Shown: one piece after another, positions 1 through 63,535 of the stretch
Numbering within the stretch: the stretch's first letter is position 1
How the letters are laid out: every line of letters starts with the position of its first letter
Assembly (NCBI GenBank): GCA_017506865.1
Contig: JAFCMP010000519.1
Coordinates: 496,001-560,000, forward strand
Direction of reading: 5' to 3'
Length of the DNA stretch: 64,000 nt
From: Tribonema minus
Taxonomy: Eukaryota > Sar > Xanthophyceae > Tribonematales > Tribonemataceae
Notes under the pieces: generated by a model
The model's input: only the letters and a program-made list of their open reading frames with translations
The model's database searches: none
What the model was told of the DNA's origin: nothing
Translations under genes and position numbers: made by a program

Positions 1-3000
1 CGCCTCACTAATTGCGACTCGCGGCGCGCCATGTGATATGCGCGCATCCGCCACTCTCACCAGGCCTCGATGGGGTATGTATGCATGGCGTCGTATACAT
101 CCCCCATCGCGAGCGCCACGACTCGTGGCGCGACACACGGACATGATTGAGCATGGCGTAGAGTGCACATTTGTAGAGGGCGCAGGCAGTGGGACTTGTT
201 GAAGCATATGGCAGTTACATGCTCGATGCGTACGCGTCCGCAACTCACCAGGCCTCGACGGGGTACGTATGCATGACGTCGTATACATACCCCATCGCGA
301 GCGCCACCGCCGCAACTCGCGGCGCGACACACGAACATGAACGCGAACGCGTCCGCCACTCACCAGGCCTCGATGGGGTATGTATGCATGGCGTCGGCGG
401 CCGCGAGCGCGTCCAGCGGCGCCAGCACAAACTCCTGGACGAGCGCTGCTGCCAACTTCAACTCGTCCTCTTGAGGTTCGTGCCACCGCACGTCGAGCTG
501 GTCCCTGGGGTGCAGCAGCGGGGGCTCCCCCAGCCTGTGCCACTCTGCCGGAGTCCCTATTTGTGACCACCTCGCGGGGGGCAGGCTGCGGGAGTCCACT
601 GGGTAGACCTGGGCACGAGCGGGCCAGAGAGGCAGGGGGGTTGTGAATCAGAAAGGCAGGGGGGGGGGGGGGTTGCTTGAAGGTTATGTGAAGAAAGAGG
701 AACCATGGTGCAAGGCTGCGGGAGTTGACTGGATAGACCTGGGCACGAGTCGGCCAGTGAGGCAAGGGGGTTAGAAAGGCGTGTGTGTGTGTGTGTGCTT
801 GAAGGTCATGTGAAGAAAGAGGAACTATGGTGTAAGGCTGCAGGAGTCCACAGGGTAGACCTGGGCGCCAGCAGACCGACAAGGCGGGGGGGGGTTGTGA
901 ACCAGAGAGGTGTGTGGGGGGGTGTTGATGAAGCTCTTGTGAAAAAGAGGAACACGGTGCACCGTAGGTGGGTCTGACGAGAGCCAGGGGATAACGATGA
1001 TGAGGTTGTTCGTGGAGGTAACACCATGTTGCAGTACGTGCGTGCGTGTTCAATGCTGTTGAATACCGCTCGCGTTTGCTGAGAGCGAATACTATGCATT
1101 GACGCACTGCACATGTGATCGCCGTTATTGCAACTCCGAGGCAACTGTAAATGCTGCATGCGGAGGTGCGGTCGAATGCCTGCATATGAACTCAAATAAG
1201 CATGTATGAAAACATGAGCGCGCGTGAATTTGATGGAATACACGTGTATCTACAAAGAATAGCACGCGGCGGGGGGGGGGGACGGGCGAAGCTGAAGTTC
1301 AAGCACTTTCATGTATACGCCCTCATGACAGGGTAAAACCTTGATGATAGGGGTAAGTCCTGATGATAGGGTTAGTGCCTCACCTCAACGAGGCCGTGCA
1401 GCAGTGCCTGAGCAGCTTGCACACCAGCCCTGATGATAGGGTCAAGCCCTGATGACAGGGTTGAGCCCTTATGACAGGAATAAGCGCTAAGTGAAAGGGT
1501 GAAGACCTGATAATAGGGTTAAGTAAGCCCTGATGATAGGGTTAGTGACTGACCTCAACGAGGCCGTGCAGCATGTGCCTGAGCAGCTTGCACGCGGTCT
1601 TGCGCGCGTGCCTGTCGCCGTGCGCCATGCCTGCCGCCAGCGCCGAGCGCAGCTGCGCGGCGTGCGGCACCACCGCCGCGCCCGCCTGCAGTTTCCCCAC
1701 AGGCCATCACCAGGCGCGCGCAAGTGTTAGCTGACGATATCGCGGTCGCGCTGTCAATCGATGAGCTTTCCTGCAGCTGGCGGCTGTGTTTTTCCTGGCT
1801 TTTTACTGCATGTGGCAGACCCACCCCCAGCGCTGAGCGCAGCTGCGCGGCGTGCGCCACCACCGCCGCGCCGCCTGTAATTGTATACGCAGGCCATCGC
1901 TACACGGGCTGATGAGTGACGATGTCGTGATTCAATGAGAGTTGAGCTTTACGGGCACGACGCAGCTTGGCATCGCCCCACGACCACACATGCTGCATAC
2001 TTGAAGTATGTACGTGCTTCACGAGCGCTGACAGCAGGCGCGGGCGCCACGCCATGAGCAGGCGCGCCGCAATACAGATCACTCACAAGTCCCGGCGAGA
2101 GCAAGAACACGCCGCGCCACGCGACCACACACTTCACTCTTGAATTGAAGTCAGACACTTCACACAGTCTTCGTAGTTGAGGTACGCACGTGCTTCACGA
2201 GCCCCGACAGCAGGCGCAAACGCCACGCCACCAGCCGGTGCGGCACATCACGAATCACTCAGAGGTCCTGACGAGAGCAACATAAGACGACGCATCGCGC
2301 AACCACACATACTTCACACTTGAAGTAGTACGTACGTGCTTCACGAGCCCCGACAGCAGGCGCAGGCGCCACGCCACGAGCCTGTGCGGCGCGTCGCGGC
2401 GCATATCCCGCCACACCAACCCTGAAGCAGAAAAAACTTTAAAAGTGATCCATGAAGAGCTGATAAGCAACAGTAGGTGCATGGTGATAGACTCCTCTGT
2501 GGGAAAGGGAAAACTACAAATGAGAGCATATGTAGGTGCGATACGCGCTGCTCACTATACATCCGCCGCATACGTACGTGCTTCACGAGCCCCGACAGCA
2601 GGCGCAGGCGCCACGCCACGAGCCGGTGCGGCGCGTCGCGGCGCACGTCCGCAGTCAGCGCGGGCACGAACAGCGCCATCGCGCGCTCGGGTGCCGCAAG
2701 CGCGCACCCCTCGAGCGCTGCCGCTGCGTCCTTGGCGCCGTCCGAAAGCGGCGACTCCAGCAGCTTGGTCAGGAGCGCGCGCGAGGCGTGGGCGAGCGCT
2801 GCCGCGTCCATCTGCGCGAATAGTTGCCTGTCGGCGTGCGCACACATAGGAACCGTGTGTGTGTGTGTGTGTGTGTGTGTGAAGATGGACGCCATCAGGG
2901 GAGTACGGTATGTAAGCAATCTTGGCATGGTGGGGAGCGCGCGCGAGGCGTGGGCGAGCGCTGCCGCATCCATATGCGCGAACACTTGCCTGTTTGCATG

Positions 3001-5409
3001 GAAACGAATCAAAAGATCGTAGAGCTCTAGGTGACAAAGGATGGTTAGCCGCAAGTACCTTCCGCCAATAACCGTGGTGGCCGCTGTTGCAGTCATTGGC
3101 CACGAGTCAAACAGTGTCATCATATCCACAGGTCAAAAGACTTCTGTGTGCGAGCTTTGCATACGCGCACACAAGAGTGATGTGTGAGGGGACGCGCAGG
3201 GGTGTGTGTGTGCGTGTGTGTGTGCGTGTGTGTGTGTGTATATGTATGAGGATAGACGCCATCAGGGGAGTATGGTATGTAAGCATTCTTGGCGTGGCGA
3301 AAAGCGCATGGAACGCTTGGGCGGGCGCTGCCGCGTCCATTTGCGCGAACAATTGCCTGTTTGTATACGCGCGCGCGGTTGCCTGTTTGCATATGCGCGT
3401 GCGGGAATGATGTGTGCGGGGAGGCGCCACACGCAGGGGAGTAGGATAGGTGTGTGTGTGTGTGTGAATGTATGAGGACGGATGCCATCAGTTGTGCGGG
3501 AGGCGTGGGCGAGCGCTGCCGCGTCCATCTGCGCAACAGCTGCCTGTCGCGCGAGTGGAGGGTCGTCGAGTGGAGGTCCGAGGCTCTGCACGAGTTGCTT
3601 GAACATGATCGCGGCTGGTTGTTGTTGTTGTGTTCTGAGGGTTAGGGTTAGGGTTAGGCGCACAGATAGCGCATCAGTGTGTGGACACACGGGGGCCGCG
3701 GCGCGCACAGGGGCGCCGTAGGTCCTTATGAATGGGCGAGAGGAGCGCGCAGGAGGCGCGTGATCTGCACCAACAGTTGCCTGTTGCGCAAGCAGAAATC
3801 GTCAATCGTGCAGAGGAGTGACGCTCGGCAAGCGCGCTGCCCTGCCGCGGCGTGCTGAACAAAAACGCCTCCAGAAGGTGACGGTCCGTACCCCTCTGCC
3901 CCCTACTTCAAACCCTACCCTCCTACTTCAAGTATGAACCCTACCCCGTCCAAGACCCACCTGCAGATGCCGCGCAGCAGATACGACAGCACGTCGTCGC
4001 GGTACGCCCCCATGGCCCCCGCGATCCCCGCAAAATCGCCGCTGCCACCCCCCCTCCATGCCACAATCCTAACCCTGTCCCCTACTTCAAACCCTACTTC
4101 AACCCCTACCCCGTCCAAGACCCACCTGCAGATGCCGCGCAGCAGATACGACAGCACATCGTCGCGATACGCCCCCATGGCCCCCGAGATTCCCGCAAAG
4201 TTGCCGACCCTACCCCCGACTTCAAACCCTTATTCAAACCTTAACTAACGCGTCCAAAGACGAACCTGCAGATGCCGCGCAGCAGATACGACAGCACGTC
4301 GTCGCGATACGCCCCCATGGCCCCCGCAATTCCTGCGAAGTCGCCGCCGCCGCCCCCCCCTATCCCCGTCATGGCGCCCGCCGTGTTCATGGTGTCTATC
4401 GACGGCGCGCCAGGCTTGGCGGGCTTGCCGCGGTGCTCCATGACTAGGAACAGTCTGTCCAGCAGTGCCAGCGCCCAGTCGAGCATCGTTCCGCTGAGCG
4501 CCTCGCACGCCGCCAGCAGCTCCTGCACAGGCGGCGTTGTGCAGGGGGTAGCAAGAGGTTGATCCACATCTTCATTTTTTTAAATGCTTGTTTAAGAATC
4601 GTTATGGCATCTATGAGTGCTCGCCGCGGTGCTCCATGACTAGGAACAGTCTGTCCAACAGCGACAGCGCCCAGTCAAGCATCGTTCCGCTGAGCGCCTC
4701 GCACGCCGCCAGCAGCTCCTGCACAGGTGAGAGTTCAGGCACATTAGGTTTTCAGAAGCGTAATGGCATTTATTAGTGGGGAGCGTACAGTAGTGTCAGT
4801 GCTCGATCCCGAAATGTTCCGCCGAGCACCTCGCACGCCCCAGCAGCTCCTGCAGGGGTGATTGTTGAAGTAGATGATGTTGTCAGAAACGCAATACTTG
4901 AAGTAGCATTTATCAGTGTGTGGGGTATAGTAGCGCCAGTGCCCAGTCCAGCGCCGTTCCACTGACCGCCTCGCACGCCGCCAGCAGCCCCTGCAAATGT
5001 GAAGAAGTAGTAAAATATATGTTGGTTTATGACAGCCTTGTTGAGCAATGATGCCGTCCTGCTCGCTGTAGCTCCTCAAGGCTGGCAGCGTACGCAGTCT
5101 GCGGCTCGCGGCCCTCAACACACATCTGCGCGAAATACACGCCAGCGCAATGCTGGAACGAGGACAACAAGTATTCACAATGCAACAGTAGCACTAACTG
5201 TAGCTGCCTCTTCACCCCCACTCCAACACAGAACCTCGCGCACACATCACACTGCCCGGCACGCACATCGCCTCTATCTTCCACAAACAGCCTATTAACC
5301 ACACAAGCATCAGCGCTCAGCCTCACCAGCCGCTCCTCCTCGTCCGCGGCAGCGCTCGTGGTCTGCCGCTCCAGCCACGGCAGCGGCGGCGCCTCCGCCG
5401 CCGCGCCGC

Positions 5410-5442
<33 letters not shown>

Positions 5443-5449
5443 CGCCACT

Positions 5450-5484
<35 letters not shown>

Positions 5485-8400
5485 TATAGTCCAGAGGCGC
5501 GCCCACTATGGGCACCCAGCACAGCACCGTGTCGAAGAACTCGAGCGTGGCGAGCGTCTTGGTGAAGTCGTTGGGGTCTACGCCCGGGAGTGCCCACGCG
5601 AGCAGCGTCGGCAGGTGCGGCGCGATGAGGGGGCGCGGGTGGAGGAGAGGGTGGGCCAGGCGCGCAAGGGCGCGCAGCGCGCACGGTGCCTGTGACAGCG
5701 GACAGCAACAAATGTGTTTGGGTATGAATGCTTATGAATCTCGTGTTTTACCAATATGTGTACTTCAAAGTATCTTGAGCACCCCCACGACCTCACGTAT
5801 CTGATGCATCTCAAGCACCTCCGGCAGCAGGCGCGCAAGACGCACGGGGCCTGAACATGTGCGTTTCAGGAGAGGGTGGGCCAGGCGCGCGAGGGCGCCT
5901 GGGGACACACAAGCAACAAATGCGTCTGCGTATGAATGCTGGCGAATCGTGTTTTACCCATATGTGTACTTCAATGTAGCTTGAGCACCCCCATCACCTC
6001 ACGTACTGCTATCTCATGCATCTCAAGCACATCAAGCAGCGAGGCGCGCATGTTGCCTGATGGAGGGGAAAAGCACGTGCACGCATATCAGGCGCCGTCT
6101 GCGTTGTGATTGTGGTATTTGGGCACGTGTTGCGCAGCGCGCACGGGGCCTGACTGTGTGCGTTTGGCCAGACAAGCAAGCATCAATGGTGTGTCAATGC
6201 TACGTCCATCAAAGCGTTTGCGATGAGGGGGGGCGGGAGGAGCAGCGGGTGGGCCAGGCGCGCTAGGGCGCGCAGCGCGCACGGGGCCTGGGGACGCGCA
6301 AGAAGTGCAGCGGTGGCGTCTGCATGCGATGATTGCTCGACTGACTGATGTTACCATATCTGATGTACTTGGGAGGCATCTTGAGCACACCCAGCACCTC
6401 GCGTATTGCATGCATCTCAAGCACCTTAGGCAGCGGGTGCACGAGGCGCGAGCGGCACGCACGACGATTGCTGCGCACGGCCCTGCTAACATACATTTGC
6501 CTACCTGGCGCGTGTGGTTGACTGCGGCGATGGGGTCGAGTGCGCGCGTCAGCAGCGGCAGTGACACGGCGGCGACCGGGATGAGGGTATGTATTTCTAC
6601 GCACATATACCCATGCCTCGTACTGGAATGAGAATATGTGTAGTACTCTACGCGTGTACCCATGCCTACCTGGTGAGTGTGGTTAACAGCAGCGATGGGG
6701 TCGAGCGCGCGCGTCAGCAGCGGCAGCGTCGCCGCTGCGACGGCACGCGGCGCCATGCCAGCCAGTATGCGCAGCGACCGCTCCCCCATGTCCACCACGG
6801 TGGGGTGCTTGGCGAACAGCATCTCGTGGCAGAGAGGGAGGAGCGCAGCGATGACGGCGGTCACGTCGGCGGCGCGCAGTGCTGCAGGGGGCAACGGGGG
6901 GGGGTGGGGTAGGGGGGGGGGGGTTAGGCACGCGTGGGTGATGTGTTGTAGCGTATACTACGCCGTTGAAGCAACAGGAGGAGGGACAAAGGGGCGGCAG
7001 CGCCCAGTGTGTGATGCTAACCCTGACCCTGACCTTTGCACGCAGTGCAGAAGAGGTGTTGAGGGACAAAAGGCGCGCCGATTGAAACTGCAGGCGTACT
7101 TCATAGGTTTCAAGGTTGATTGTCCCCAAGTCAGGCCTACAATTGCTCACTGCTGATCCTGAACATTACCTTGAACCTCACCACATTTGTCAATGCCATG
7201 TTAAGCTGAAGCAGCCTTGCCTGAGCAATTGGCGACACGTCGCTTACCATCCTGCTGATCCACGCGACCCTAACCTCTGCCCTAATTTTCAACCCCAAAT
7301 ATGATCCCACACCTAATCCTTACCCTAACCCAAACCCTAACCCTGACCTGGATACGGCGACACGCCGCCTGCCGTCTCTGCGGCGTCCTGCGCGTCCTGC
7401 GCGCCCAAGCGCCAAGCCCTGACCCTAACCCTGACTTTGACTCTCATCATCCCCTACCCTAGCCCAAAATTGCGTTGTGTACCTGGATACGGCGACACGC
7501 CGCCCGCCGTCTCTGCTGCGTCCTGCGCCCCCAAGCCCTGATCCTGATTGTAACCCTAATTACTGATCCCACGCAACCCTGAACCTAACCCTAGGTTGCG
7601 TCACCTGGACACGGCGGCACGCCGCCCGCAGTCTCGGCCGCGTCCTGCGTGCCCAGCCCCCAAGCCCTAATCCTAACCCTAACCCTAACCCTGACTCCAA
7701 ATCTCATCATGCCCTACCCTAGCAATTGCGCCATGTACCTGGATACGGCGACACGCCGCCCGCCGTCTCAGCGCCGTCCTGCGCCCCCAGGCGCCGCGCC
7801 AGCGCGCACGACAGCCACGCCACCGCCAGCGCAATCTGATCCGACCAGCGCCCCAGGTTGGACGGGTGGATGTACGTGCGCAGCGAGCGCAGGTACGTCA
7901 GCAGCAGCTGCGTGCCGCGCGTCAGGCGCTGCCGCCGCTGCTGCTGCTGCTGCTGCGGAGGCGGCGAAGTAGTAGGCTGAGCGCTGACTTCGTCCTCGTA
8001 CGCGCCGTCGCCGCCGCGCCCCATGCAGAAGACGAGCAGCTTGGCGAGCTTGGGGAGGAGGACGTTGTTGGAGACGCCCGTGTTGCCCAGGAGCGCGCGG
8101 TAGACCTGCGCGCGCGTGCGTGCGTACATGCATACATGCGACGTGTGCATTAATGTACATACTTCAAAAGTACATACTTCTGAAGTACGTAGTTGGAGAC
8201 GACCTTGTTGCATACGACGTGTGCATTAATGTACATACTTCGAAGTACGTCAAAAGTACATGCGTTGTTGGAGACGCCCGTGCTGCCTAGCAGCGCGCGG
8301 TAGACCTGCGCGCGCTCGTGTGTACATGCATGCATACATACAACGTCGATGTGTGCATTAACACACCTACTTCAAATAATAGACGTTGTTGCTGACGCCC

Positions 8401-11400
8401 AAGTTGCCGCGCATCGCGCGGTAGACGTGCGCGCGCGTGCGTGCACAAGTACATACGAGTAGATTTGTGCATCAATACACATACTTCGAAGTACTTCAAG
8501 GTACATGCGTTATTGCTGAAGCCCGTGTTGCCCAGCAGCCCGCGGTACACCTGCGCACGCGTGTGCATACATGCACACATACATACGATGTGTGTGCATA
8601 CATAAACACCGCCCGTGTTGCCCAGCAGCACGCGGTAGACCTGCACGCGCGCGCGTGCGTACATAACATACGACGTCGACGTGTGCATTGATATACATAC
8701 TTCAAAGTACATGCGTTGTTGCCCAGCAGCGCGCGGTACACCTGCGCGCGCACGCATACGTATGAACGTGTGGCAAGATTGACACCAGAACGTGAAGCAT
8801 GCTGTACACAGCACAGTCATGCACCTCACTAAGTATGCGTACAAAGTTGTGCGCCCACCTGCAGTACCGCCCAAAGACACTGCATCAATATACACACTTC
8901 AAATCTATAGGTATGTGGGTAGGTTCACCCCTCGCCGCTACCCACCTGCGGTATCGCGCGGTGTTCCGGTGGAGCGCCCTGCCCGAGCGGCGTGTCCCTC
9001 ACAAAGCAGACTTCATATCCATCCAAACATACACATGTATTTTATACCAACACTTCGACAGTGCACTTCAATTGAATGGGTATGTAGGTAGGTACGCCCA
9101 CCTGCGGTATCGCGCGGTGCTCCGGCGGCGCGCCCTGCCCCAGCGGCGTGCTCACCGCGAGGCGCGCCTTCATGAACACGCACGGCATCAGCGCATCCCA
9201 ATCCACCACCCCCGCCGCAGCGTGCTTGCGCGCGCGGCACAGCAGCGTCGCCACCATCTGATCCAGATCCAAACAGTGATCGACCGCGACCCACAGCGCC
9301 GCAAGCTGCGGCACCAGCGCCGCCATCTCCGGCGCGTCCGACGGCATGAACAGCGTGAGCACTGCCACGGAGCGGAAGACCTCCTGGCGGCGCGCGTCGG
9401 CGAGGCCGGCGGCGGCGACAGCGGCGACCTCCGCGCCGGCGCGCGGCGCGAAGTAGTGGCGCGCGACGGAGGCCAGGTTGACGAGGGAGCGCCCGTGCGC
9501 GGCGTCCACGCCGCGGCAGGACGTCGGCAGGCCCAGGCCGTCCTCCTGTCAAGTGTGTGTTTTTGAAGTTGAGGTTATATGTTGAAGTTATGAGTGAAAT
9601 GCTTTTTGATTGACTCTTGTATGATGTGATGTAAGGTTGACGAGCGAGCGCCCGTGCGCGGCATCCACGCCGCGGCAAGACGTCGGCAGGCCCAGGCTGT
9701 CCTCCTGCCGACAATTATATGAAGTTGAGGTTGAATGTTGAAGTAATTTGAGTTCTCGAGGTTCAAGTTGAGTTGATTACGCGGTAAAGAGCTAAAGCTG
9801 GCTTAGGGAGCGCCTGTGCGCGGCGTCCAAGCCGCGGCAGGACGTCGGCAGGCCCAGACCGTCCTCCTGCGGTGTATACACAGTTGAGGTTAGACACAGA
9901 GTTGAAGTCGAATGTGAAGAATTCCGGGTTGTTGCGGCGCGAAGAGGTGGCGCGCGACGGAGGCGAGGTTGACGAGGGAGCGCCCGCGCGTGGCGTCCAC
10001 GCCGCGCCGCGGCAGGACGTCGGCAGGCCGAGGCCATCCTCCGGGGGATACAAAGTTGAAGTTGACCATTGAAGTTGAATATCGGAGTCCTCACAGGTTC
10101 AAGATACCAGGACTCCGATACAAGATACCAGGGCAGTGATGAGTAAAAAAATGGTCGAGGGAGCGCCCGTGCACGGCGTCCATGCCGCGGCAGGACGTCG
10201 GCAGGCAATGTGCGCACGCTCCATTGAACAACACAAATACTTCGAAGTACTTCTTTTGAAATATCACCATGTTCACCTGATATGCGGCCATCACCGCGGC
10301 GAACAGCGGGCGCCATGCCAGCTCCAGCGCCCCATAGACGGGCAGCAGTACAGTTTGCATTCGCCTACATGCTTGTACTACAGCATCACCAGATACTTTA
10401 ACAGTGTGCACATGCATCATACACAAGTATCACAATGTATGTTCACCTGGTACGCGGCCATCACCGCGTCGAACAGCGGCCTCCACGCCAGCTGCAGCTC
10501 CCCATAGACAGGCGGCACTACAATCTGTAATCGTATGCTTCGAAGTACTTGCATTGCAGCATCACGCTACACTTCACGTGTGCACGCGCTTCATTGAACA
10601 ACAACAAGGAAATAATATCAGTGTGTTCACCTGATATGCAGCCATCACCGCGTCAAAAAGCGGCCTCCACGCCAGCTCCAGCTCCCCATAAACAGGCGGC
10701 TCCACCTCCGCCAGCGCATTGACAACGAGCGCGTACGCCGTCTGGTGCAGCCGCGTGCGGATGTTAACGGGCAGCTGCTGCGGCGGCGGCAGCACCTCCA
10801 CTCCGCCCTCCGGAAACGCCAGCTGCCAGATCTGGATAAGCAGCAGGACCTTGTCGGCGGGCGCGAGGCGGTAGTTCAAGTCCATGTAGTTCTGCAGCTG
10901 GCGGCACGCACGGCTCAGCCTGGTGGGAGGGGGAAGGGAGGGGGGGGGAGGGGGTAGGTTGGTATGACATGGGGGCGAGGCGGTAGTCCAATGTAGTTCT
11001 GCAGCTGGCGGCACGCACTGGTCAGCCTGGGGGGTGGGGGTGGGGGGGGGGTAGGGGGTAGGTTGGTATGGCAACAGGTGAGGCTCGGTTACGGAATGGC
11101 GAGGGAGTTGTTTGAGGTGGTTGGCGGTGGTTTGAGGTAGAGCAATGCCGCAGTCAGCTTGGCGGTCGTGGGACCGCAGAGGAGTTTGAAGATGTCTGGT
11201 GTTTGAATGTGACCATGGGTACGTACATACCCGCCCCCTTGGAGTTCATGCATGGCGAAATGTGCATGGGCTGTCGGGTTGTGCCAGGCTTAGAGCAGAC
11301 ATTTGCAGTTGTACATAGAGCCAAGTACGCCACATTGTCTTTTAAAACGGATCCATAGAGAAGCTTGATGACATCCACGCAGCACCTTTTTGTTGCATTT

Positions 11401-12520
11401 GTGCATTCAATGGGGAAAACCACCAAAGTGGTTAAAATGTGGTTATGATGTGGTCACACATCAAGGGCATCATGAGCATCAAATAAGATAACAATGCAGA
11501 GGGGTCAAGCCGAGTCGGGAGCTGGCGAAGCGCCCAGCTCAGCCTGCTACGCGACAGCGTCATGTTTAGAGTCTCAACATGAGACGCTTTAGATGCTCAA
11601 GCCTTGCAGCAAGTGACCGAGAGAAAAGCCCCAGAAACACAATGATGAAGCGGCACTGCAGTAGCGAACGTCCGCACAACTCTGTGGCAGCAGGCACAGG
11701 GAGTTGCGCCTGTGGTGTGGCAGTTTGAAGGTTACTCATTGCTTTACGAGATAGGCTTGTAGGCTCAGAGACCTTCGTCCATGCCACAGGGCAGGCGTAA
11801 AGACAAAAACTAATCCTATGGGGTGCGACACTACAAGCAAAAGAATGGCGCGCGAAATCTGTGCATCGCACCCTGCATGGCTGCCACACAGCACATCGCC
11901 CGGTGCATGTGGTGACTGGAACGCGCACACTGAAGTCCAAGGTTTCAAGTAATTCAGTGTCTCACATTCATTCTGATATGTTAGGATGCCGGTGTTGCAT
12001 TCGCGTACCAACAGATTGGGAAAGGCTTTGCTGGCTGAAAAACATGCAATCAGAGTACAGGAAATTGACTGTAAGGGTAGCACAGTTGTGTCTAACTTCA
12101 CATGTGAGGCACACAAAGGTACCGGCAATACCCACTGCAAGTACAGGCGTCACTGGTCTGCCCTTTACATGAGTACAACCCACTGGAAGCAGCGGCCCCT
12201 TGCTTCGAGAGTCACTTGGACGGTATTACTCTCATGATAGCTGCACTTAATAAGATAATACATGTTTCCATTGAGAGCTTTCAACGTGTACAAGACGTTC
12301 TTGAGTTTTCAGACGGAGTTGACTGTGTTGACTGTGCTCACGTCTTCGGATTGTCGCCCAGGTTGAAAGACATGAAAGTCTCTTTGAGCTCTGCTAGCCT
12401 TTCCTGCTCCTCTGTCTCCAGCGCTGGCCTGTAGCTGGGCGGGAGCGTGGCATTGAACGGGTGCAGCGGTATGCTCGTGTCTTCATTGTCCGGCACCGGC
12501 ATCGTGTCTTCGCCTGCCAT
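1..12520 (-). CDS. PSME4: Proteasome activator PA200/Blm10, N-terminal half (10 exons, partial)
   Basis: HEAT-repeat cap of the 20S proteasome. Exons, read downward: 12342-12520 (start ATG 12520), 10631-10919, 9102-9545, 7739-8105, 6670-6881, 5327-5689, 4266-4522, 2578-2827, 1554-1685 and 364-608. All have AG/GT sites and all nine junctions keep phase, giving about 912 codons. Landmarks colinear with family members as I know them: ELAWRPLFDAVM near residue 140; RHYFAPRAGAEV near 185; YIHPSNLGRW near 395; LPGVDPNDFTKTL near 540; DWALALLDRLFLVME near 640; ERAMALFVPAL near 755; a W.QIGTPAEWH stretch near 850. A Gly-rich insert (GCC tract 5395-5484) sits after VGAPLDY and is probably lineage-specific. 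The rest of the protein, including the bromodomain-like region known in animals, lies left of position 1. Family identity is firm; exon edges are inferred from phase and homology, with no transcripts. Confidence 0.9.
55..330 (-). repeat. PSME4 intron 10: two copies of the exon 10 donor edge
   Basis: Exon 10 ends at 364 (GAGGCCTG, then GTGAGTGG). Two further copies of the same edge, reading roughly MHTYPIEAW and followed by GTGAGT or GTGAGA, lie just downstream at about 250 and 62. The intron continues off the window. Confidence 0.75.
703..1428 (-). repeat. PSME4 intron 9: exon-edge copies at both ends
   Basis: Copies of the exon 10 acceptor edge (CCCAG then GTCTAYCCNGT...) lie at 703-760 and 832-885. 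A copy of the exon 9 donor edge (GGCCTCGTTGAGGT) lies at 1378-1428. The rest of the intron has a poly-G run (658-672), a short GT run and a minisatellite. Confidence 0.75.
1320..1550. repeat. Minisatellite, GATGATAGGGTTAAG-like unit
   Basis: About nine imperfect units of 15-20 bases, with cores such as CCTGATGATAGGGTTA and CCTGATGACAGGGT, inside PSME4 intron 9 next to the exon 9 donor. The GGGTTA core resembles the telomere-type repeats elsewhere in the window. A donor-edge copy interrupts the array. Confidence 0.8.
1822..2408 (-). repeat. PSME4 intron 8: three donor-edge copies and one acceptor-edge copy
   Basis: Exon 8 ends at 2578 in GTGAAGCAC then GTACGT. Copies of its last 60-75 bases with a following GTACGT, GTGCGT or GTACAT lie at 2331-2408, 2180-2250 and 2005-2080. 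A copy of the exon 9 start (GCNGGCGGTGGTG...CAGCTGCGCTC) lies at 1822-1885 but has lost the AG at its edge. Confidence 0.8.
3015..3102 (-). repeat. Dispersed repeat D1, copy 1
   Basis: Reverse-complement partner of 46790-46877, differing at about four positions. It lies in PSME4 intron 7 between acceptor-edge copies. It is too short to classify and has no obvious terminal repeats or tRNA-type promoter boxes. Confidence 0.92.
3637..3658 (-). repeat. Interstitial telomere-like repeat in PSME4 intron 7
   Basis: Three and a half TTAGGG units on the plus strand, between two acceptor-edge copies. Confidence 0.92.
4627..5000 (-). repeat. PSME4 intron 6: three acceptor-edge copies of exon 7
   Basis: Exon 7 begins at 4522 with GAGCTGCTGGCGGCGTGCGAGG. 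Increasingly diverged copies, each preceded by a pyrimidine-rich tract and TGCAG, begin near 4722, 4854 and 4994. The nearest copy is almost identical over about 95 bases; the outer two degenerate after about 65. The spacing is 130-200 bases. Confidence 0.85.
5770..6580 (-). repeat. PSME4 intron 5: donor-edge copy plus extended acceptor-edge units
   Basis: A donor-edge copy of exon 5 (LTRALDPIAAVNHT) lies at 6505-6580. Towards exon 6 lie copies of its start (CAG then G..CCGTGCGC...) at 5870-5910, 6125-6155 and 6215-6298. Longer units at 5770-5850, 5985-6055 and 6385-6465 carry an extra conserved module reading VLEMHxIREVxGVLK. That module is absent from the inferred exon 6. Confidence 0.7.
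7320..7700 (+). repeat. Scattered telomere-like repeats in PSME4 intron 4
   Basis: CCCTAA and CCCTGA units in short runs at about 7320-7347, 7420-7432, 7565-7590 and 7668-7693, alternating with donor-edge copies of exon 4. Confidence 0.85.
7347..7660 (-). repeat. PSME4 intron 4: three donor-edge copies of exon 4
   Basis: Exon 4 ends at 7739 (GGCGTGTCGCCGTATCCAG then GTACAT). Copies of the last 40-60 bases, each ending CCAGGT, lie at 7602-7660, 7477-7535 and 7347-7405. Short CCCTAA and CCCTGA telomere-like strings fill the space between them. Confidence 0.85.
8262..8995 (-). repeat. PSME4 intron 3: five acceptor-edge and one or two donor-edge copies
   Basis: Exon 4 starts at 8105 (CGCAG then GTCTACCGCGCGCTGCTGGG). 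Copies have their edges near 8305, 8426, 8551, 8641 and 8742, at spacings of about 90-200 bases. Four keep CAG|GT; the one at 8426 reads ACGT. A donor-edge copy of exon 3 (ATACCGCAG then GTGGGT) lies at 8938-8995, with a fainter one near 8855-8880. Palindromic words such as ACTTCGAAGT separate the copies. Confidence 0.85.
9637..10520 (-). repeat. PSME4 intron 2: two donor-edge and four acceptor-edge copies
   Basis: Donor-edge copies of exon 2 (ELAWRPLFxAVMAAYQ, ending CAGGTGAAC) lie at 10438-10520 and 10266-10345. Acceptor-edge copies of exon 3 (GGAGGACGGCCTGGGCCTGC...) lie at 9637-9716, 9798-9878, 9955-10050 and 10152-10212. The two nearest exon 3 keep CAG; the third reads CCGGAG and the fourth is truncated. 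Donor copies sit on the donor side and acceptor copies on the acceptor side. Confidence 0.88.
10976..11040 (-). repeat. PSME4 intron 1: acceptor-edge copy of exon 2
   Basis: A poly-pyrimidine tract, CCCCAG and the first ~55 bases of exon 2 (GCTGAGC...GCCAGCTGCAGAACTAC) are duplicated upstream of the real acceptor at 10919. The copy has small deletions. Confidence 0.85.
11041..12341 (-). other. Body of PSME4 intron 1
   Basis: Lies between the exon 1 donor (GAC|GTGAGC at 12341) and the duplicated acceptor. I see no convincing coding, RNA or mobile-element signal in it. Open frames here are short and unlike known proteins. Confidence 0.5.
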
Positions 12521-13234
12521 GACGCAAGATGTGCTGGCTATGCCTCAATGAAGGTTATTGAAGCACGCAAGACCCTCCTTCCGCCAGTCTGGTGTGCCGC
12601 TCGTGTTGCAGGTTGACGCAATGCAATTCGTCTGCAGACCTCCTGCGAGCTGCGATCTGTCGAAATCTTCCCAAAAAACTTCAACTTCGACCCTGCGAGG
12701 AGAACTTCCGAAATCCTGCAACAAAACAAAACAACCCCCCCGTCGCGATGCGCGATTAAGCTCCACTTTGACACAGCGCCAGAAGCTCGTCGCCAAGCAG
12801 CGCAGCGACAGCAGCGGTGCAGAGCGGCGCCGGGGCGGACACAGCCAAGGTCCGAGGTAAGAAGTACACGCACCAAATCGATTACAGCGCCACCAAGGGG
12901 CGAGACCCCCTTGCGCCACACTTGCAACAGCATTGCACTGTATACCAATTCTCGCTTGATCCCAGATGGTAGATGTCCAGGTTGCTATCAGAATCAACAC
13001 CTATCTTGTGCGACATCGCCATTCCCCCCCCTTCAAGTCATCATGCATCTGCCTCCAGTCCGCCATGTGCGTCATGACCCGCAAACATTATGCTGCCGGC
13101 AAAGCTATGCCTCTTCTAAAAGGCTCGATGACTGGCTGTCGGGGCTTATAGCAGCAGCGCATGTTAACAGCAGCGCCAACAGATTTCATGCAGAGCAGCA
13201 CTAACAATCGGTTTTCAATGCAGGTGGAGACAGC
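12521..13234. other. Divergent intergenic region between PSME4 and the FNIP gene
   Basis: Probably holds the PSME4 promoter on the minus strand and the 5' part of the FNIP gene on the plus strand. I see no TATA box or clear exon. A plausible splice acceptor (TTTTCAATGCAG) lies at about 13213-13224, just before the FNIP reading frame. The region contains one copy of a dispersed ~140-base repeat (12580-12720). Confidence 0.4.
12580..12720 (+). repeat. Dispersed repeat D2, copy 1
   Basis: Resembles 28230-28375. Shared blocks include GTGCCGCTCGTGTTG, CTGCAGACCTCCTG and the AACTTCAAC word. Divergence is substantial, so it is an old repeat or a conserved motif block. Both copies have the same orientation. 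Confidence 0.6.
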
Positions 13235-13610
13235 ATGTTCGGCGGGCAAGTGAAGCGGCAGAAGGCCGGGGGCGCCTGTCCTGTTGAAGTCCTGAGTGTC
13301 GTTGCGCAATCCGGTCGGCTGCCTAAGCCTGCATGGTCACTCAACAAGCAGTCTCGCGAGGACGTCATCCCACTAAAGCGTGCGGAACTCCACGGAGACG
13401 AGACCCTTAAAACTTTCAACGCCGTGATGCGTGACCCCGCTCTGATCCACATTGTCATGACCCCATGCCCCAGTTGTGATGAGATGGAGATTGCCTTCCC
13501 CAGACAACTTCAGATTCTGTCCGTCGAACGGATGGACTATAACGAGGTCATGGATTTGGATCTCGGCACGGTTCCGCACGGACTGCGTGAACTGCGGGTA
13601 CTTGGTCCAT
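13235..13610 (+). pseudogene. FNIP/LRR-like protein gene, 5' part (split by a retrotransposon)
   Basis: An open frame from ATG 13235 reads leucine-rich, FNIP-like strands such as AFPRQLQILSVERM and VPHGLRELRVLG up to the copia insertion at 13611. It resumes in the same sense after the element at 20126 with a matching LRR-like strand. FNIP repeats (LP..L..L.L...F..P) are typical of large repeat families in amoebae, giant viruses and algae and are thought to act in protein recognition. The true start may lie in an upstream exon, because a good AG acceptor precedes the ATG. The insertion makes the gene almost certainly non-functional here. Confidence 0.7.
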
Positions 13611-13867
13611 TGGAAAACCGGGGGTGCGCAGAGAGAGAGGAGAGCAGCCATGCCCTGGCCGCAGGCCGCCCGCAGGCGCCTCGAGCTGGGAGAAGAAGAA
13701 GTGATATTATTGCTGACACAAAACAAGGGCCAGCGGGAACCTTCCGTTCCGTAGGGGCACCAGAACCTTCAAGAACTTGCTAGAACTTACTGGAGAAACC
13801 CTTAGAACTGGACCATGCCCTACCCCTAGGGTATGCACTAAGTATTGGACCATCTCATATTCCAACA
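13611..13867 (-). repeat. LTR1 (outer, 3' LTR of the composite element)
   Basis: 257 bases, about 99% identical to 19868-20125. It begins TGTTGGAATATG on the minus strand and is preceded there by the purine-rich GACTGGGGGATGG at 13868-13880. Confidence 0.93.
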
Positions 13868-14834
13868 CCATCCCCCAGTCAACGCTCCATGCCCTCATAA
13901 GCTTGACTGTATCTGCACCCACTGGCAAAAGAGCCTGGTGCCTTACCTCTGCAAAATCATTGTGATACACTGCCATATCTGCAGCTACTTGCAAATTATA
14001 GATACGTCAGGCAGAATCTGCGCCGTGAACAACTTGCCACTCAACGCTATCTGCCTATTACCTGCGCTGTTACCAAGCGCATGCCCCCCCCACTATGTTG
14101 AGAGGTACCCTCCCCGGCTATGCCCGCCACATTGACATCCTGTACCATCTACGCTCCAGCTATACTCTAGCAGACCAAGCCCTGAGCGCATTATATCTGC
14201 CGCTCCTTAGCCAGCTGCTCCTCGTACCAGCCCTGATCGCCATAAGCTCCTGAGCTTGAGCACGCTCCATGCCCCTTGGGCATTGGTCGCCTCTGTCACA
14301 GCTCGACCTCCGGGCATGCCTGTGTAGCGCACCAGCCATACGCTGTGCCCACGTCGCATTGGGTGTGCCTTGCAACACCCTTAACCCCTTGCCGATGCCA
14401 CGGTCCTACCACGCTGGGATTTACGGACCCTTCCCCGTGCCTGGGGTGGCAACTGCGATGCCGTAGCTCAACCGCTCCGCTTGTGCACGACGCTAGCACT
14501 CCGAAGTCAAGCTGCTCCTGCTGCTGCTGTTGTTGCCGAACGACGCACATCCCTGATGTAGCTGCTGCTGCCGTCGTCGTGAGGTAGAGTTGGCCACAGC
14601 TGAACTCGCATGCTGAATCTTGTCGGGGATGCCTTCCTGCACCTGACCTCACAGCGTGATGCAGCTCGTGCTGTAAACCGTCTCCTACTTGCGTATGTCC
14701 TCCACGCCAGCAAACGATAGGTGATCAGCCGTCCTCGTCGCTGCTGCGCGTGCGCCCATTGATAACCCAGTGGCGTCGAAGCTGGGGACTTCAGCTGTGC
14801 AGGCTTCTCCTCATGAGCGCAGGCTCATAACCAT
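13868..14834 (-). mobile_element. Non-coding internal segment between LTR1 and LTR2
   Basis: Bounded by a polypurine tract (13868-13880) and a primer-binding site (TGGTTATGAGCC on the minus strand, 14822-14833), so it has the layout of a small non-autonomous LTR element. It has no gag or pol. A short CTG-rich stretch lies near 14510-14535. Its left edge (PPT and about 45 bases) is closely related to 15140-15185 beside LTR2. Confidence 0.7.
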
Positions 14835-15139
14835 TGATTTCTTGACACCGCGCAGAGTGCCAGCCAGCGGAAGCAATATGTCCTCCTCACCTTCGTGTTG
14901 CACATCATCTTGACCAGGCATGATTGCAGAGCACCAGAGGCAGAAGAGAGAGTTCCAACTTGTGTGGATGCAAAGGAAGTGAGGTATTCACAGGATGCAC
15001 AAGACACAAGGTGGTGGAATTGCTTCCCTACAGCACGGGGCACTAGAACTTGCCAGAACACGCAAGAACGTGCCAGAACTTGCAAGGGAAACCTAGGAAA
15101 CTTCTGCAGAATACAATGACCCTTCTACATATTCCAACA
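14835..15139 (-). repeat. LTR2, divergent internal LTR
   Basis: About 305 bases, from a TGTTGGAATATG start on the minus strand to ...AAATCA at the junction with a primer-binding site. It shares the terminal bases and an AGAACTTG.CAGAAC-like block with LTR1 and LTR3 but is otherwise different. It is flanked by a polypurine tract on the gag-pol side (15140-15152) and a primer-binding site on the other. It therefore acts as 3' LTR of the coding part and 5' LTR of the non-coding part. Confidence 0.7.
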
Positions 15140-15240
15140 CCCTCCCCCAGTCAACGCTCCATGCCCTCATGAGCTTGACTGGATAAAACTGCACACTGCC
15201 ACAGAGCCTGGTTCGTTACCTCTGCGCAATTGCAAATACC

Positions 15241-18200
15241 CTAAAATCTTCCGAGCAATGCTGCCGAATGAAACATGTGCTGCTCAGTGCTCAGCGACTT
15301 GGTCAGCACATCTGCATGCTGCGCCTGCGTGCGCACTGCTTCTACAGCAATCTTCCCCCTGGCAACCTGCTCGCGCACATAATGAAACTTAACATCTATG
15401 TGCTTGGTGCGCTGCGACGCACCCTCATCTGCTGCCAACCTGATAGCAGCAGTGTTGTCCTCAAGGATCCGCACTACCCCGTGTGCCTCCCCCAAGAACC
15501 CCAGGAGCCGTACCATAGATGGCACCTCCTTGCTCGCCGCGCACAGCGCCACGTACTCCGCCTCCGCCGTAGAAAGCGTAACGCATGGTTGAAGCTTGGA
15601 GCTCCACGCCACCGCCGCGCCACCAAGCAGAAACGCATACCCGGTGTGACTGCGCCGCGTCTCGCGGTCGCTCGCAAAAGATGCGTCGGCGTATCCGAGC
15701 AGCTGCAGCTCCGCGCCCTCCCGCCTCTGGAATGTGAGGCCCGCCGGATGGCCCTTGAGGTACCGCAGCACTCGCTTGGCTGCCTCCAACAGGCACGCCC
15801 GTGGCGCCACCAGATGCCGCCGCAGCTGAGACACCGTGTAACTGATGTCCGGCCGCGTGCATGCGGTGACCCACCCCAGCTCCCCCACCAGACCCTGGTA
15901 CTCCCGAATTTGAGCACCGTCCAGCAGCGGCGAATCCTCCACCGAAACGGCTGCGCTTGCTGCTGGTGTCTGCGTGTGATGAGGGTCCTGCAGGCCGTAC
16001 TTGGCCAGCAAGCTGTTCACGTAGTCGGTCTGCGACATGGTGATGCCGCCATCGCCGGTGCGCGTGAACGTGATCCCCAGGAACTTGGTTGGAAAGCCGA
16101 GGTCCTTGAGGTCGAACTCCGCCCCTATGTCGTCGACTGCCGCCTGCAGCACGCCCTGGTCGCTGCTGCCCGTCATGAACACGTCGTCGACGTGCAGCAG
16201 TATGATGGCGCCTGACTGATGGTTGCGCAGCACGCACGGGTCAGCAAGGCACTGCTTGTAACCGCGCTGCTTGAGGGCGATGATGAGCTTCTGATGCCAA
16301 AGCCGTGGGCTCTGGTGCAGCCCGTAGAGGCTCTTGCGAAGCCTCATGACGAGTGGCTGGCCATCCTTGCCGCGCTTGACGAACCCCTGCGGCTGATGCA
16401 CGAAGGTGGGCTTGTCGATGTCCGCTTGGACAAAGGCGTTGTCGAAGTCGCATGCGTGAAGCTCCCAGTTGTAGTACGCCGCTAGCGCCACCAGTACCCG
16501 AAGCGATCTGATCTCGGCAGTGGGTGAATGCACCGCATCGAAATCTACGCCGGGTCGCTGCTGATCGCCGCGAACAACTATGCGCGCCTTGCGCCTCGCC
16601 ACCTCGCCATGTTCCCCGAACTTGGTCTTAAGCACCCAAGTGGTGCCCAGCACCTTAGCTCCCTGCTCCACCTCGCTCTGCTCCACCAGCTCCCACGTCC
16701 CCCGGCCATTGAGCTGGTCGTACTCCTTGCTGCAGGCTGCGCGCCACTCACTGCTGTGAGCCCCCTCTACCGCCTCGTGGTAAGACTTAGGGTCCTGTGC
16801 GCAAACAGCCGCTGCTGCAAGCAAAGCAACGAAGTGGGCTCGTGAGTACCCACGCCCGCTGCGTGTGCGGGAGGGCCGCGTTGCTGCATCTGCTGTCGAG
16901 TCAGCATCCGCAGCATCTCCCTCCCCAGCTGCTGGCCCCTGGCCTGCTGCTGCATCGCCGCTAGCCTCGCCAGCAGCCTCGCCAACAGCACCGTCCTCCT
17001 TAGCAACTTCCTCGGGCCCCTGCCCGAGCTCCTGTTCGGGCCCCTCCTCGGGCCCCGCCGCCGGCTCCTCCGCATCAGGACCCTCGCGGAACGTCACGTG
17101 GAACGCCGTGACCACCTGGCGCGTGCGCTCGTTGTACACGAGGTAACCACCCTTGGTGTCCTCTGAGTACCCCACCAGCCGCCCGCGCCACGCCTTGTTG
17201 GTGAACTTGCCGGGCTCTCCCTCCGCGCACACGTACGCGAAAGAGCCGAACACCTTGAGCTTGGACAGGTCCGGGATCTGTCCCGTCCACGCCTCGAACG
17301 GGGTCTTCCCTCCGAGCGCAGAGTGAGGGCTCCTGTTGACAAGGTAAGTGGCATGGCGGAGAGCAAAAGGCCACAGTGACCCAGGCAGAGCTGCCTGCAG
17401 CATCTCGCACCGCGCCTTGTTGTGCAGCGTGCGCAGCGCACGCTCCGCGATGCCGTTGGACTCGTGCGTGTACGGCGCCGAGTAGCTGATGTCGTAACCG
17501 GCTGAGACGCTGTGCTCCTTGAATGACGCCGCCCTGAACTCCTTGGGCCCGTCCAAGTGCACCTCAAACAGGTGACGCTCCTTGGGCGCCAGCACGTCGC
17601 CTCGCAGCCGCTCAACATCCTCCGCCATGTCTGCTTTTGACCTGCGACAGTACACAACATGGTAACGCGTGTGCTCGTCGACGAACACCCTGGAGTACCA
17701 GCTGCCGTCGTGGCCGCGCTCCTCGTACGGCCCGGCCGTATCGCTGTGCCACACCTGCCCGGCGGCAGTTGCGCCCTGAGCGGCGCGCGGGGGGTGCGTC
17801 TGGTGTGTAGCCTTGCCCAAGTGGCAGGTCTCGCACGGTGGCAACTCCCCGTCGGGCAGCTCTAGTCCTGAGCCTTCCATGCCCGCCAAACGCCGCATGT
17901 CCGCCAAGTTGAGGTGCCCTAGCCGCTGATGCCAGCGCTCCAGCGACACTGAGGCTGCAAACGCCTCTGGGCGACTACCTCCGCCGCCGGCTCGAAGCGC
18001 TCCGTCGCTGCAACCCCTGACCCGAAACTTGTAAAGGCCGTTCTCCTGCCGCAGTGGCACTGCTACCCTGGGGCCGCCTGGCACTGCTGGCGGCAGCACC
18101 AGGGACATGGCTCCTGGCGTGAGCACGAGCTCGCCCCCTGCCGCAACCAGCTTTGACGCGCTCAGCAGCAGCGCCTGGCCTGAGTGCGGCACAATGAGCG

Positions 18201-34180: not shown

Positions 34181-35828
34181 TTAAATTGTTGACGTGCAAC
34201 TTGGATCCTCTGTATCACGCTGCGGCTCGGTGCGATTGGCGCACAGCCACCGCACCGCCTCAACCTGATTGTCCCGCATCGCAAGGTTGAGCGCTGCTTG
34301 CACCACGCGCCGCGACCAGCAGCCGTGCGCACGCAGCCAGCGCAGCACCTCGACCTGCCCGGCGCGCGCCGCGCTCGCCGCCGCGCCGCCGTCGTACGCG
34401 AAGACACCCGCGCCGTTGCGCCTGCACCACTCGAGCACCTCCACGTGGCCGTAGCGCGCCGCGCCGACGCACACGCGCTCGCAGTCGAGGTGATGCGCGC
34501 ACCGCCTGTCAGCGGCGCTCAGAAGGCCCAGCGCCTCCGCCGCGTCCGCGCTGCCGCGGCGCGCGTGCAGCGACGCGTTCGCGTAGATATCGATATGCTC
34601 CTCGCTCCAGAGGTCGTAGACCGTGCAGCCGTTGGCGAGCGCCCAGCGCAGCACGCGAAGGTGCGCGCCCCTCACGGCCGCCAATGCGGTGCCGCAGCCC
34701 CACGGCGCGCCGTTCGCGCGCGCCCACTGCAGCACCTCGAGGTGCCCTCCCCGCGCCGCCGACGAACACGTGCTTTCAATCCAGTCGCAGCCGCGCTCGC
34801 GCGCCCAGCGGAGCACTGCCAAGTGGCCGCCGCGCGCCGCGGCAGCGCACGTCCACTTGTCCCAGGGGCAGCCGTTCGCGCGCGCCCACCGCAGCACTGC
34901 TAGGTGTCCATTAAAGGCCGCCTCGCTGCACACCGCAGCGTCCCACGGCGCGCCGTTCTCGCGTGCCCACCGCAGCACCGCTAGGTGTCCGCCGTAGGCA
35001 GCGCGCACGCACACGCGCCGGTCCCACGCGCAGCCGCTCGCGCGCGCCCACCGCAGCAGCGCCAGGTGTCCGCCGAGCGCTGCCTCGCTGCACGTGTCCG
35101 CACTCCACGGCGCGCCATTTGTGCGCGCCCAGAGCAGCACCTCCAGGTACCCGTTGCGCGCTGCTGCACGACACACGGCTTCGCTACACCAGTCGCAGCC
35201 GTTGGCGCGCGCCCACTGCAGGATGTGCAGATGGCCCGCGCCCGCCGCCGCGAAACATGTGCACTCGAACCACTCGCAGCCGTTCTCGCGGGCCCACTGC
35301 AGCAGCGTGAGGTGCCCGCCGCGGGCGGCGGAAGCGCAGGTGCGGTGGTCCCAGGGGCAGCCGCCGCGGCGGAGCCACTGAGGACGGCGATGTGGCCCCC
35401 GCCGGCTGCCGCAGCGCACCACTCCGCGGCTGTGGACTTCGGCCAGAGCTCGATGTTGAGGTGGCGCATCATGCCGTGGATGCAGGGCAGTACGTGCGCG
35501 CGGCCGGCGCTGACGGCCGCGCCGAACGCCTGGTAAGCGTCCCATGGGCAGGCGTTGGCGAGCAGGTATCGCAGCAGGCGCAGGTCCCCCGCACTTGCTG
35601 CCAAGAGGGTGAGGTGCTTGCCCCAGCAGCAGCCGTGGGCGCGCGCCCACAGCAGCTGATCGACGGACAGATCTGCTGCTGTGATGGCTGTTGCCTTGGG
35701 GTAGAGGCTCGCGTATGTCTCCCTCCACTCGCGGCACACGAGCGCCGTGTGCAGGTAGCGATTGGGGCCGATGAGCTCGCAGAGTACCAGCCAGGCTCCA
35801 CCAGACCAGGTGAGAGACTCGTTGCCCG
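34181..35828 (-). CDS. F-box-like ankyrin-repeat protein, one frameshift
   Basis: The frame starts at an AG acceptor (TTGCAG) at 35828, so an upstream exon is missing. The first ~45 residues look F-box-like (WLVLCELIGPNRYL then LVCREWRETY). At least nine ankyrin-type repeats of ~26-27 residues follow (GHLAVLRWARANGCPWD with TCAAAARG), and the stop is at 34181. At 35379-35381 the frame must shift by one base: GHIAVL should be followed by QWLRRGGCPWD, but one C of CTCCAG is missing. Both frames are otherwise clean, so either the gene is recently broken or there is a base-calling error. Such proteins are usually adaptors that present targets to SCF ubiquitin ligases. Large WARANG-type families occur in many algae. 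Confidence 0.85.
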
Positions 35829-62984: not shown

Positions 62985-63535
62985 GTCAAGGACGAGCATG
63001 CACGCCTCATGGAGGGGGGGGACAGGGCGGATGCGGCGTGTAAGGCGGCACAGGTAAGGCTACATGCGCAATACATGCTTACTGGAAGTACAACTTCAAC
63101 ATGTGCTCCACAAGAGAGAACTCATCGAAGTCTTTGTCAAGGACGAGCACGCACGTCTCATGGAGGCGAGGGACAACACAGACGCGGCACAGGTATATGC
63201 CCACCACATGCACATTGAAGTGCAGCTTCAATCCATAGTTGCTGGTTGTTGGTTTACGAGAGAGAAACTCACATGTCGTACACAGCGAAATCCCTGTAAA
63301 GGACGAGCACGCACGTCTCATGGAGGAGAAGGACTGGGCTGACGCAGCGTGCAAGGCGGCACAGGTAACACCATATGCAATTGAGCGCATTGTTGATGTG
63401 CAACTTCAACATGCAGTTGGCGGTTGTTTCGGATTTACGAGAGAGAAACTCACATGTCATACGCAACAAAGTCTCTGTCAAGGACGAGCACGCACACCTC
63501 ACGGAGGAGAGGCAGCACACCTGCGGTGCAAAGCG
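62985..63535 (+). repeat. LZTFL1: four donor-edge copies after exon 4
   Basis: The last 60-75 bases of exon 4 (AAGGACGAGCACGCACGCCTC...GCGGCACAG) recur at 62985-63056, 63128-63192, 63296-63366 and 63475-63535. The first three end ACAG GTAAGG, GTATAT and GTAACA; the last decays. Each is followed by a spacer with TGCAACTTCAAC and GAGAGAAACTCA. Confidence 0.92.

Follow-up and report, generated by a model that had tools for sequence, protein, structure and literature searches.

The introns of the PSME4 gene of Tribonema minus, a xanthophyte stramenopile (Xanthophyceae), are stacked with copies of the edges of their own neighbouring exons, each consisting of roughly 20-100 bases of exon edge together with the adjoining GT or AG. 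A first-pass annotation of this DNA had suggested iterated local duplication at existing junctions, and that suggestion is supported by the presence of such copies in several unrelated genes and by arrays that are younger than the split between two paralogues. We propose, with moderate confidence, that introns of T. minus have been lengthened by repeated duplication of segments straddling the exon-intron junction, the unused copies being nearly neutral and their exon parts being kept alike by subsequent exchange.

Exon-edge copies in PSME4

The gene lies on the minus strand and runs from about position 12,520 of the window, the whole 64,000-base stretch that was analysed, to about 11,200 bases left of it. 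It was recognised as PSME4 through solved PSME4 chains, which match a 413-residue piece (E 3.5e-16), and the best match of the spliced protein is the hypothetical protein JKP88DRAFT_330915 of T. minus (P0001). Exon edges were placed from open frames and GT/AG sites and are the same as in the NCBI model except for the extra pieces inserted there; the intron set comprises 17 introns of at least 60 bases, a 28-base 'intron' being excluded.

Queries consisted of 40 exon bases plus the splice dinucleotide, with a score threshold of 14 or 18 as stated. Introns 1-9 hold 37 copies scoring at least 14, at 15 of the 17 exon edges tried, and exactly one of them scores just 14, the top score in 136 dinucleotide-preserving shuffles; intron 10 adds two further copies within the window. 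The first-pass annotation had reported, by eye, about forty exon-edge copies with their splice sites, distributed over all ten introns that reach into the window, and the copies, their number and their presence in all ten introns are borne out. Intron 1 contributes one strong and one weak copy (score 15), and the edge query for the donor edge of exon 6 (5327) found no copy scoring at least 14. Over the whole gene, the count is 57 copies in 15 of 18 introns at a score of at least 14, and 49 copies in 14 of 17 introns, at 22 of 34 edges, at a score of at least 18. The features within the window are as follows.

10991-11026, minus strand: acceptor copy of the exon 2 start
10631-10919, minus strand: exon 2, whose edges served as queries
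10277-10516, minus strand: two donor copies of the exon 2 end, with exon-like parts at 10447-10516 and 10277-10346, each treated by the NCBI model as an exon
9634-10223, minus strand: four acceptor copies of the exon 3 start, the AG (or the site where it has decayed) being near 9706, 9868, 10043 and 10223
9102-9545, minus strand: exon 3
8946-8994, minus strand: donor copy of the exon 3 end
8263-8743, minus strand: five acceptor copies of the exon 4 start, junctions near 8307, 8428, 8552, 8642 and 8743
7739-8105, minus strand: exon 4
7348-7656, minus strand: three donor copies of the exon 4 end, GT at 7603, 7481 and 7346
6670-6881, minus strand: exon 5
6505-6576, minus strand: donor copy of the exon 5 end
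5868-6289, minus strand: three acceptor copies of the exon 6 start, the best at 6220-6287, the other two weak
5327-5689, minus strand: exon 6
4619-4992, minus strand: three acceptor copies of the exon 7 start, AG at 4720, 4851 and 4992
4266-4522, minus strand: exon 7
3961-4217, minus strand: two donor copies of the exon 7 end
2925-3782, minus strand: four acceptor copies of the exon 8 start, AG near 2991, 3358, 3545 and 3782
2578-2827, minus strand: exon 8
2404-2577, minus strand: spacer separating exon 8 from the first of its donor copies
2014-2403, minus strand: three donor copies of the exon 8 end, GT at 2334, 2188 and 2012
1824-1876, minus strand: acceptor copy of the exon 9 start
1554-1685, minus strand: exon 9
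1384-1422, minus strand: donor copy of the exon 9 end
713-862, minus strand: two short acceptor copies of the exon 10 start
364-608, minus strand: exon 10
61-281, minus strand: two donor copies of the exon 10 end, a third lying left of the window

The copies are 70-100% identical to the exon, and 43 of the 57 retain the splice dinucleotide (placement is approximate, a few exon edges being off by one base). Their arrays extend over 8,806 of the 17,306 intron bases of the gene (51%). Successive copies are spaced at a median of 165 bases (quartiles 134-183), in line with the roughly 90-200 bases estimated at first pass; a count of spacings by three (14/22/30) was set aside because the spacings are accurate to a few bases only. 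Self-matches in a 33-kb region are direct in 230 of 241 cases and in PSME4 reach 546 bases, spanning more than one unit, and copies within one array often share their end point in the exon (exon parts of 70/70, 66/66, 33/33, 26/26 and 110/110 bases).

Copies in other genes and at random loci

Controls were scored at 18, with exons predicted by a codon model trained on PSME4 alone. In the PSME4 region, copies occur at 20 of 38 predicted edges, as against no match at this score at mid-exon (0/30), on the wrong side of the exon (0/38) or in reverse complement (0/38); at a score of 16, one mid-exon and three reverse matches appear. The arrangement in which donor-edge copies follow and acceptor-edge copies precede their own exon thus holds in this region. 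For comparison, 18 random stretches of 10 kb with 54 predicted exons were sampled. After removal of low-complexity queries (3/52 acceptor, 3/49 donor and 10/52 + 9/49 mid-exon), which was also applied, in uncounted number, to the 40-mer profiles of PSME4 and P450 given below, positives numbered 13 among 49 acceptor edges and 7 among 46 donor edges, with control matches of 3/42 + 2/40 at mid-exon, 0/46 + 1/49 on the wrong side, 0/49 + 1/46 in reverse and none in shuffled flanks. The comparison of exon edges with exon interiors, which the first-pass annotation had envisaged genome-wide, was thus made in samples, and in these the edges are the commoner. Testable predicted exons were present in 14 of the 18 random stretches, of which 8 carried at least one positive edge and 6 no edge copy at score 18. 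Elsewhere in the window, copies were detected at 2 of 22 acceptor edges and 4 of 23 donor edges (controls: mid-exon 0/44, wrong side 0/45, reverse 0/22 + 2/23).

The genes concerned are diverse. Specifically, Pfam identifies P450 (L011), Iso_dh (L010), Flavodoxin_2 (L014), Trehalose_PPase (L008) and Metallophos (L006) at copy-bearing random loci and Leu_zip at a copy-bearing locus in the window; at L009 it identifies CNNM, the copies there lying at another predicted exon, and the locus with the most positive edges of all, L007, matched no Pfam family.

The P450 gene was reached via random locus L011, and L021 was used to extend it. Two proteins define its exons, namely the NCBI model P0007 and P0014, which derives from a Trinity transcript deposited in EukProt and shows 98% identity across 69% of the query. 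The gene holds 17 copies in 5 of its 7 introns, the best of 14 shuffles scoring 9, and in the young array of intron 6 about 110 exon and 65 intron bases are repeated head-to-tail at intervals of about 178 bases. A paralogue (L025), by contrast, has only two copies in eight introns of 293-1297 bases, which makes the arrays patchy among genes. All 13 P450 copies tested (of 17) are nearer to their own exon than to that of the paralogue, some by a few points only, and the arrays are therefore younger than the paralogue split. Six of the seven intron positions, including four of the five that bear arrays, lie at the same protein place in the paralogue as judged by eye, so that new intron creation is not seen in these six. 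Intron 6 (L011/L021, about 11501-15551, 4 kb) has no counterpart in L025, where two other introns are peculiar to the paralogue, and it may reflect either gain or loss relative to L025. In intron 4, a GC donor (L011, about 9561) is backed by P0014; the NCBI model takes a GT instead and drops three residues.

At the right end of the window lies an LZTFL1-like gene, with six copies spread over 3 of its 5 introns; three of these copies fall within the window.

61762-61961, plus strand: LZTFL1-like exon 3
62165-62206, plus strand: donor copy of the exon 3 end
62751-62896, plus strand: LZTFL1-like exon 4, with donor copies ending near 63055 and 63366

The first-pass annotation had extended its proposal to the lineage as a whole. 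With only two copies in the paralogue and 6 of 14 random loci without any, a lineage-wide rule is unsupported.

Other repeats and frames were recorded alongside. An open frame at 34220-35161 (minus strand) contains in-frame 81-base repeats (27 residues, of 'GGHLAVLRWAR' type), which we take to be ankyrin-like, and another at 36816-37397 (plus strand), presumably SET-like, contains a 150-base in-frame direct repeat, which may represent a copied exon edge whose reading frame is intact. Frames at 15985-17319 (minus strand) are, we assume, reverse-transcriptase-like, of Ty1/copia type. Very young tandem duplications lie off predicted exons in L011 (2746-3407, 331 bases, 99.7%) and L016 (7073-7669, 199 bases, 98.5%). 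Short telomere-like runs of TTAGGG/CCCTAA, possibly repair-related, occur in introns (window 3630-3660, 7320-7345 and 7675-7695, and other spacers) and are enriched in the sample, as is the word ACTTCAA/TTGAAGT in the 18 random loci (200 against 18.6 expected).

The duplicated unit and the origin of the arrays

In the explanation that we favour, short segments straddling an existing exon-intron junction would be duplicated repeatedly, on the donor as well as the acceptor side, and the intron would lengthen with each round. Each event would be a tandem duplication, arising for instance by staggered-break fill-in or slippage, in which both copies keep the splice site. If the splicing machinery defines whole exons, it should stay with the contiguous edge and ignore a copied edge, which is no whole exon with a splice site at each end, so that the duplication would be nearly neutral and persist. 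The exon edges, now about 150 bases apart, could in turn supply the homology on which in-register exchange or short tracts of gene conversion depend; this would add copies and preserve the similarity of the exon parts, whereas the intron flanks would decay.

Tandem duplication is demonstrated by co-duplicated flanks for part of the arrays only. Specifically, the intron flank is recognisable beside 33 of the 57 PSME4 copies, where it exceeds all 60 shuffles, whereas beside the other 24 its similarity is not above shuffles and tandem duplication is accordingly not shown for those copies. Identity is far higher in the exon parts than in the flanks, both between exon and copy (0.914 against 0.676, 44 pairs) and between two intronic copies (0.866 against 0.686, 33 pairs), relative to a mean of 0.53 for unrelated DNA, and exon and flank identity are uncorrelated (Spearman -0.13, P 0.40). 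Co-duplication of exon edge and flank, though clear in some arrays, does not by itself explain the better-kept exon parts; an exchange limited to the exon part would uncouple the two identities in just this way. No conversion tracts were demonstrated in the arrays, and the exchange between exon and copy, like any preference for junctions, is something that we infer.

Because the identity pairs were picked by their exon part (score at least 24), an unbiased 40-mer search was run as well. In PSME4, same-intron matches per 40-mer amount to 1.28, 0.97, 0.36 and 0.11 for centres lying 20, 40, 60 and 80 exon bases, respectively, from the junction, and no same-intron match was found for 40-mers centred 100-200 exon bases from the junction or in exon interiors (0/178); intron 40-mers give 0.28 at 20 intron bases and 0.34 in interiors. 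The P450 gene shows a milder contrast, with an exon profile of 0.93, 0.57, 0.64, 0.14 and 0.07 (one match in 14 at 100 exon bases and none further in) and intron values of 0.33 (20 intron bases from the junction) and 0.12 (intron interiors). The exon-to-intron match ratio is 4.6 in PSME4 and 2.8 in P450.

These profiles bear on the possibility that generic tandem duplication proceeds at the same rate everywhere, with junctions unfavoured and junction cases visible only because they are tolerated, a possibility that we consider unlikely though deserving of serious weight. It gains from tandem repeats of about 80-250 bases that also occur away from predicted exons (L005, L015, L016, L017, L019), from two in-exon repeats in the window whose units are divisible by three (34622-35343, period 81; 36897-37156, period 150) and from the low ratio in P450. 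Simulated uniform neutral duplication (eight settings only, 60 introns each), however, yielded ratios of 0.85-4.2, which were at most 2.2 unless intron DNA was three times as mutable, together with 0.15-0.87 exon matches per 40-mer at 120 bases and 0.58-3.26 intron-interior matches. All settings gave broader exon profiles and more numerous interior matches than observed; one threefold-mutable setting, with its ratio of 4.2, approaches the PSME4 ratio but leaves the rest of the PSME4 profile unmatched. The uniform model thus did not reproduce the PSME4 profile, and the repeats away from and inside exons make it likely that a general tendency to tandem duplication is part of the story.

A tentative alternative of similar standing treats exon edges as local seeds, with a junction-specific process that would plant or re-copy 20-100 bases plus the splice site, homogenised with the exon and phased at about 165 bases, while the introns of loaded genes turn over as they exchange continually with the exons beside them; the phasing would correspond, at a guess, to roughly one nucleosome repeat. 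More doubtful is an exon-edge-specific process, such as templated insertion or conversion at splice junctions, that would plant short copies amid unrelated filler. In its favour, some near-identical exon parts adjoin flanks that are about as dissimilar as unrelated DNA (exon part/flank identity 1.00/0.53 at the exon 17 donor, 0.94/0.56 at the exon 15 donor and 0.92/0.50 at the exon 12 acceptor of PSME4), and the lack of correlation between exon and flank identity fits as well. The 174-base exon 8 spacer likewise matched only itself across the T. minus genome (158.18 Mb, 554 contigs), in a search of this one spacer that skips simple repeats and very common words; the 90-base flank of exon 8 resembles the flanks of the copies no more closely than shuffles do, although identity rises to 0.75 over the first 36 bases. 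For four other spacers, about 270 kb of sequence yielded few matches or none, except that 125 bases of the exon 15 flank match L013 at 80%. Against such planting, several arrays have clearly co-duplicated flanks, and the flanks of neighbouring copies average 0.69, compared with 0.53 for unrelated DNA.

Growth at the exon would be expected to leave a gradient, and the first-pass annotation had described divergence as rising with distance from the exon. As a steady gradient this is unconfirmed. Among 15 PSME4 arrays, the copy closest to the exon ranks first, alone or in a tie, in 8 (6.9 expected, P 0.36), with a mean correlation of -0.09; in P450, the same holds for 4 of 5 (P 0.06), with a correlation of -0.86 (P 0.004); pooled, the values are 12 of 20 (8.8 expected, P 0.09) and -0.28 (P 0.053). 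The gradient, present in P450, is weak in PSME4, which counts against the junction-straddling duplication that we favour, and strict ladder growth outward from the exon, being weakly supported, was not adopted.

Coding status, known systems and significance

That the copies are real, translated mini-exons is a reading that we regard as very unlikely. The NCBI model of PSME4 treats 20 copies as exons among 42 chained pieces, and the LZTFL1-like model JKP88DRAFT_264836 (P0127) includes copies in an extra stretch at about residues 161-235; among the T. minus database models examined, two of four (these two, as opposed to the two P450s) contain copy-derived peptides. The PSME4 model, however, is 2,578 residues long, compared with 1,687-2,034 in the five other proteins found and 1843-1878 in the solved chains, and its reading of the 20 copies as exons is probably wrong. 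The extra LZTFL1-like stretch is missing from three full-length relatives, two of them brown-algal. In P450, the single transcript protein P0014 extends from exon 1 as far as exon 7, and the 13 copies of introns 2, 3, 4 and 6 are all missing from it; its first part is in a different frame, and its exon 2 extends beyond the donor of the NCBI model.

Codon positions in PSME4 point the same way. Exon-to-copy differences number 37/36/102 by codon position, as expected of a constrained exon and a free copy, and states common to all copies but differing from the exon number nine at third and three at second positions; judged from sequence comparison, the pattern fits an exon changing chiefly at silent sites and copies changing freely, and the near-neutrality of the copies is thereby supported. 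Copy-to-copy differences (58/64/90) also lean towards the third position, a point against the favoured account, although on our reading the lean may reflect copies that left the exon at different times. The copies themselves show no supported coding constraint, single-copy changes being nearly even in raw counts (31/37/47).

An introner-like mobile element as the source of the spacers is still less probable. The word ACTTCAA/TTGAAGT is enriched in PSME4 introns (35 against 1.4 expected), but its association with breakpoints is not significant (odds ratio 1.9, P 0.08-0.10) and it was rejected as a breakpoint signal; the spacer searches described above, with the exon 8 spacer matching itself alone and the four others next to nothing bar the one match to L013, point away from a dispersed family. 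That an assembly artefact produced the copies, which are known from assembled sequence rather than raw reads, is scarcely credible given their range of identity to the exon, the codon-position pattern on the exon side, their recurrence on independent contigs and a paralogue largely free of them.

The closest precedent comes from a potato RdRp gene, where one tandem duplication, supported by reads, crosses the boundary of intron and exon (Ma, Lan and Niu 2016, PMC4974935); as in T. minus, the duplicated unit comprises intron end, splice site and exon start. As that paper presents it, one event gave rise to a new intron and an exon used in mRNA, whereas loaded genes of T. minus carry tens of copies, on both sides of the exon, mostly in pre-existing introns and apparently unused. 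Tandem duplication as a source of new introns has been reviewed (PMC3443670), and it shares with the present case the extra splice sites supplied by local tandem duplication; in the classical form outlined there, exonic sequence is duplicated and the intron is made de novo, while in T. minus the junction pre-exists. Introners (PMC9860276) likewise remodel introns on a large scale, but are described as dispersed families, some with target duplications of 3-9 bases, in contrast to local copies derived from the adjoining exon; the word 'Tribonema' is absent from the main text of that paper. A known route to short tandem duplications is Pol alpha-primase fill-in at breaks with 3' overhangs (PMC8355091), reported for human and mouse cells in an abstract that does not mention splice junctions. 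Beyond these works, no report of introns filled with repeated edges of the adjoining exons was recognised among the matches listed, as judged by titles and abstract openings in a search covering few subscription papers. With the single potato case already published, the arrays are best regarded as a new variant, a massive form of a known junction duplication.

If this interpretation is true, T. minus would reveal an ongoing and common route of intron lengthening, dozens of whose intermediate stages survive side by side within single genes. The arrays would also offer natural test cases for how splicing chooses among near-identical splice sites about 150 bases apart.
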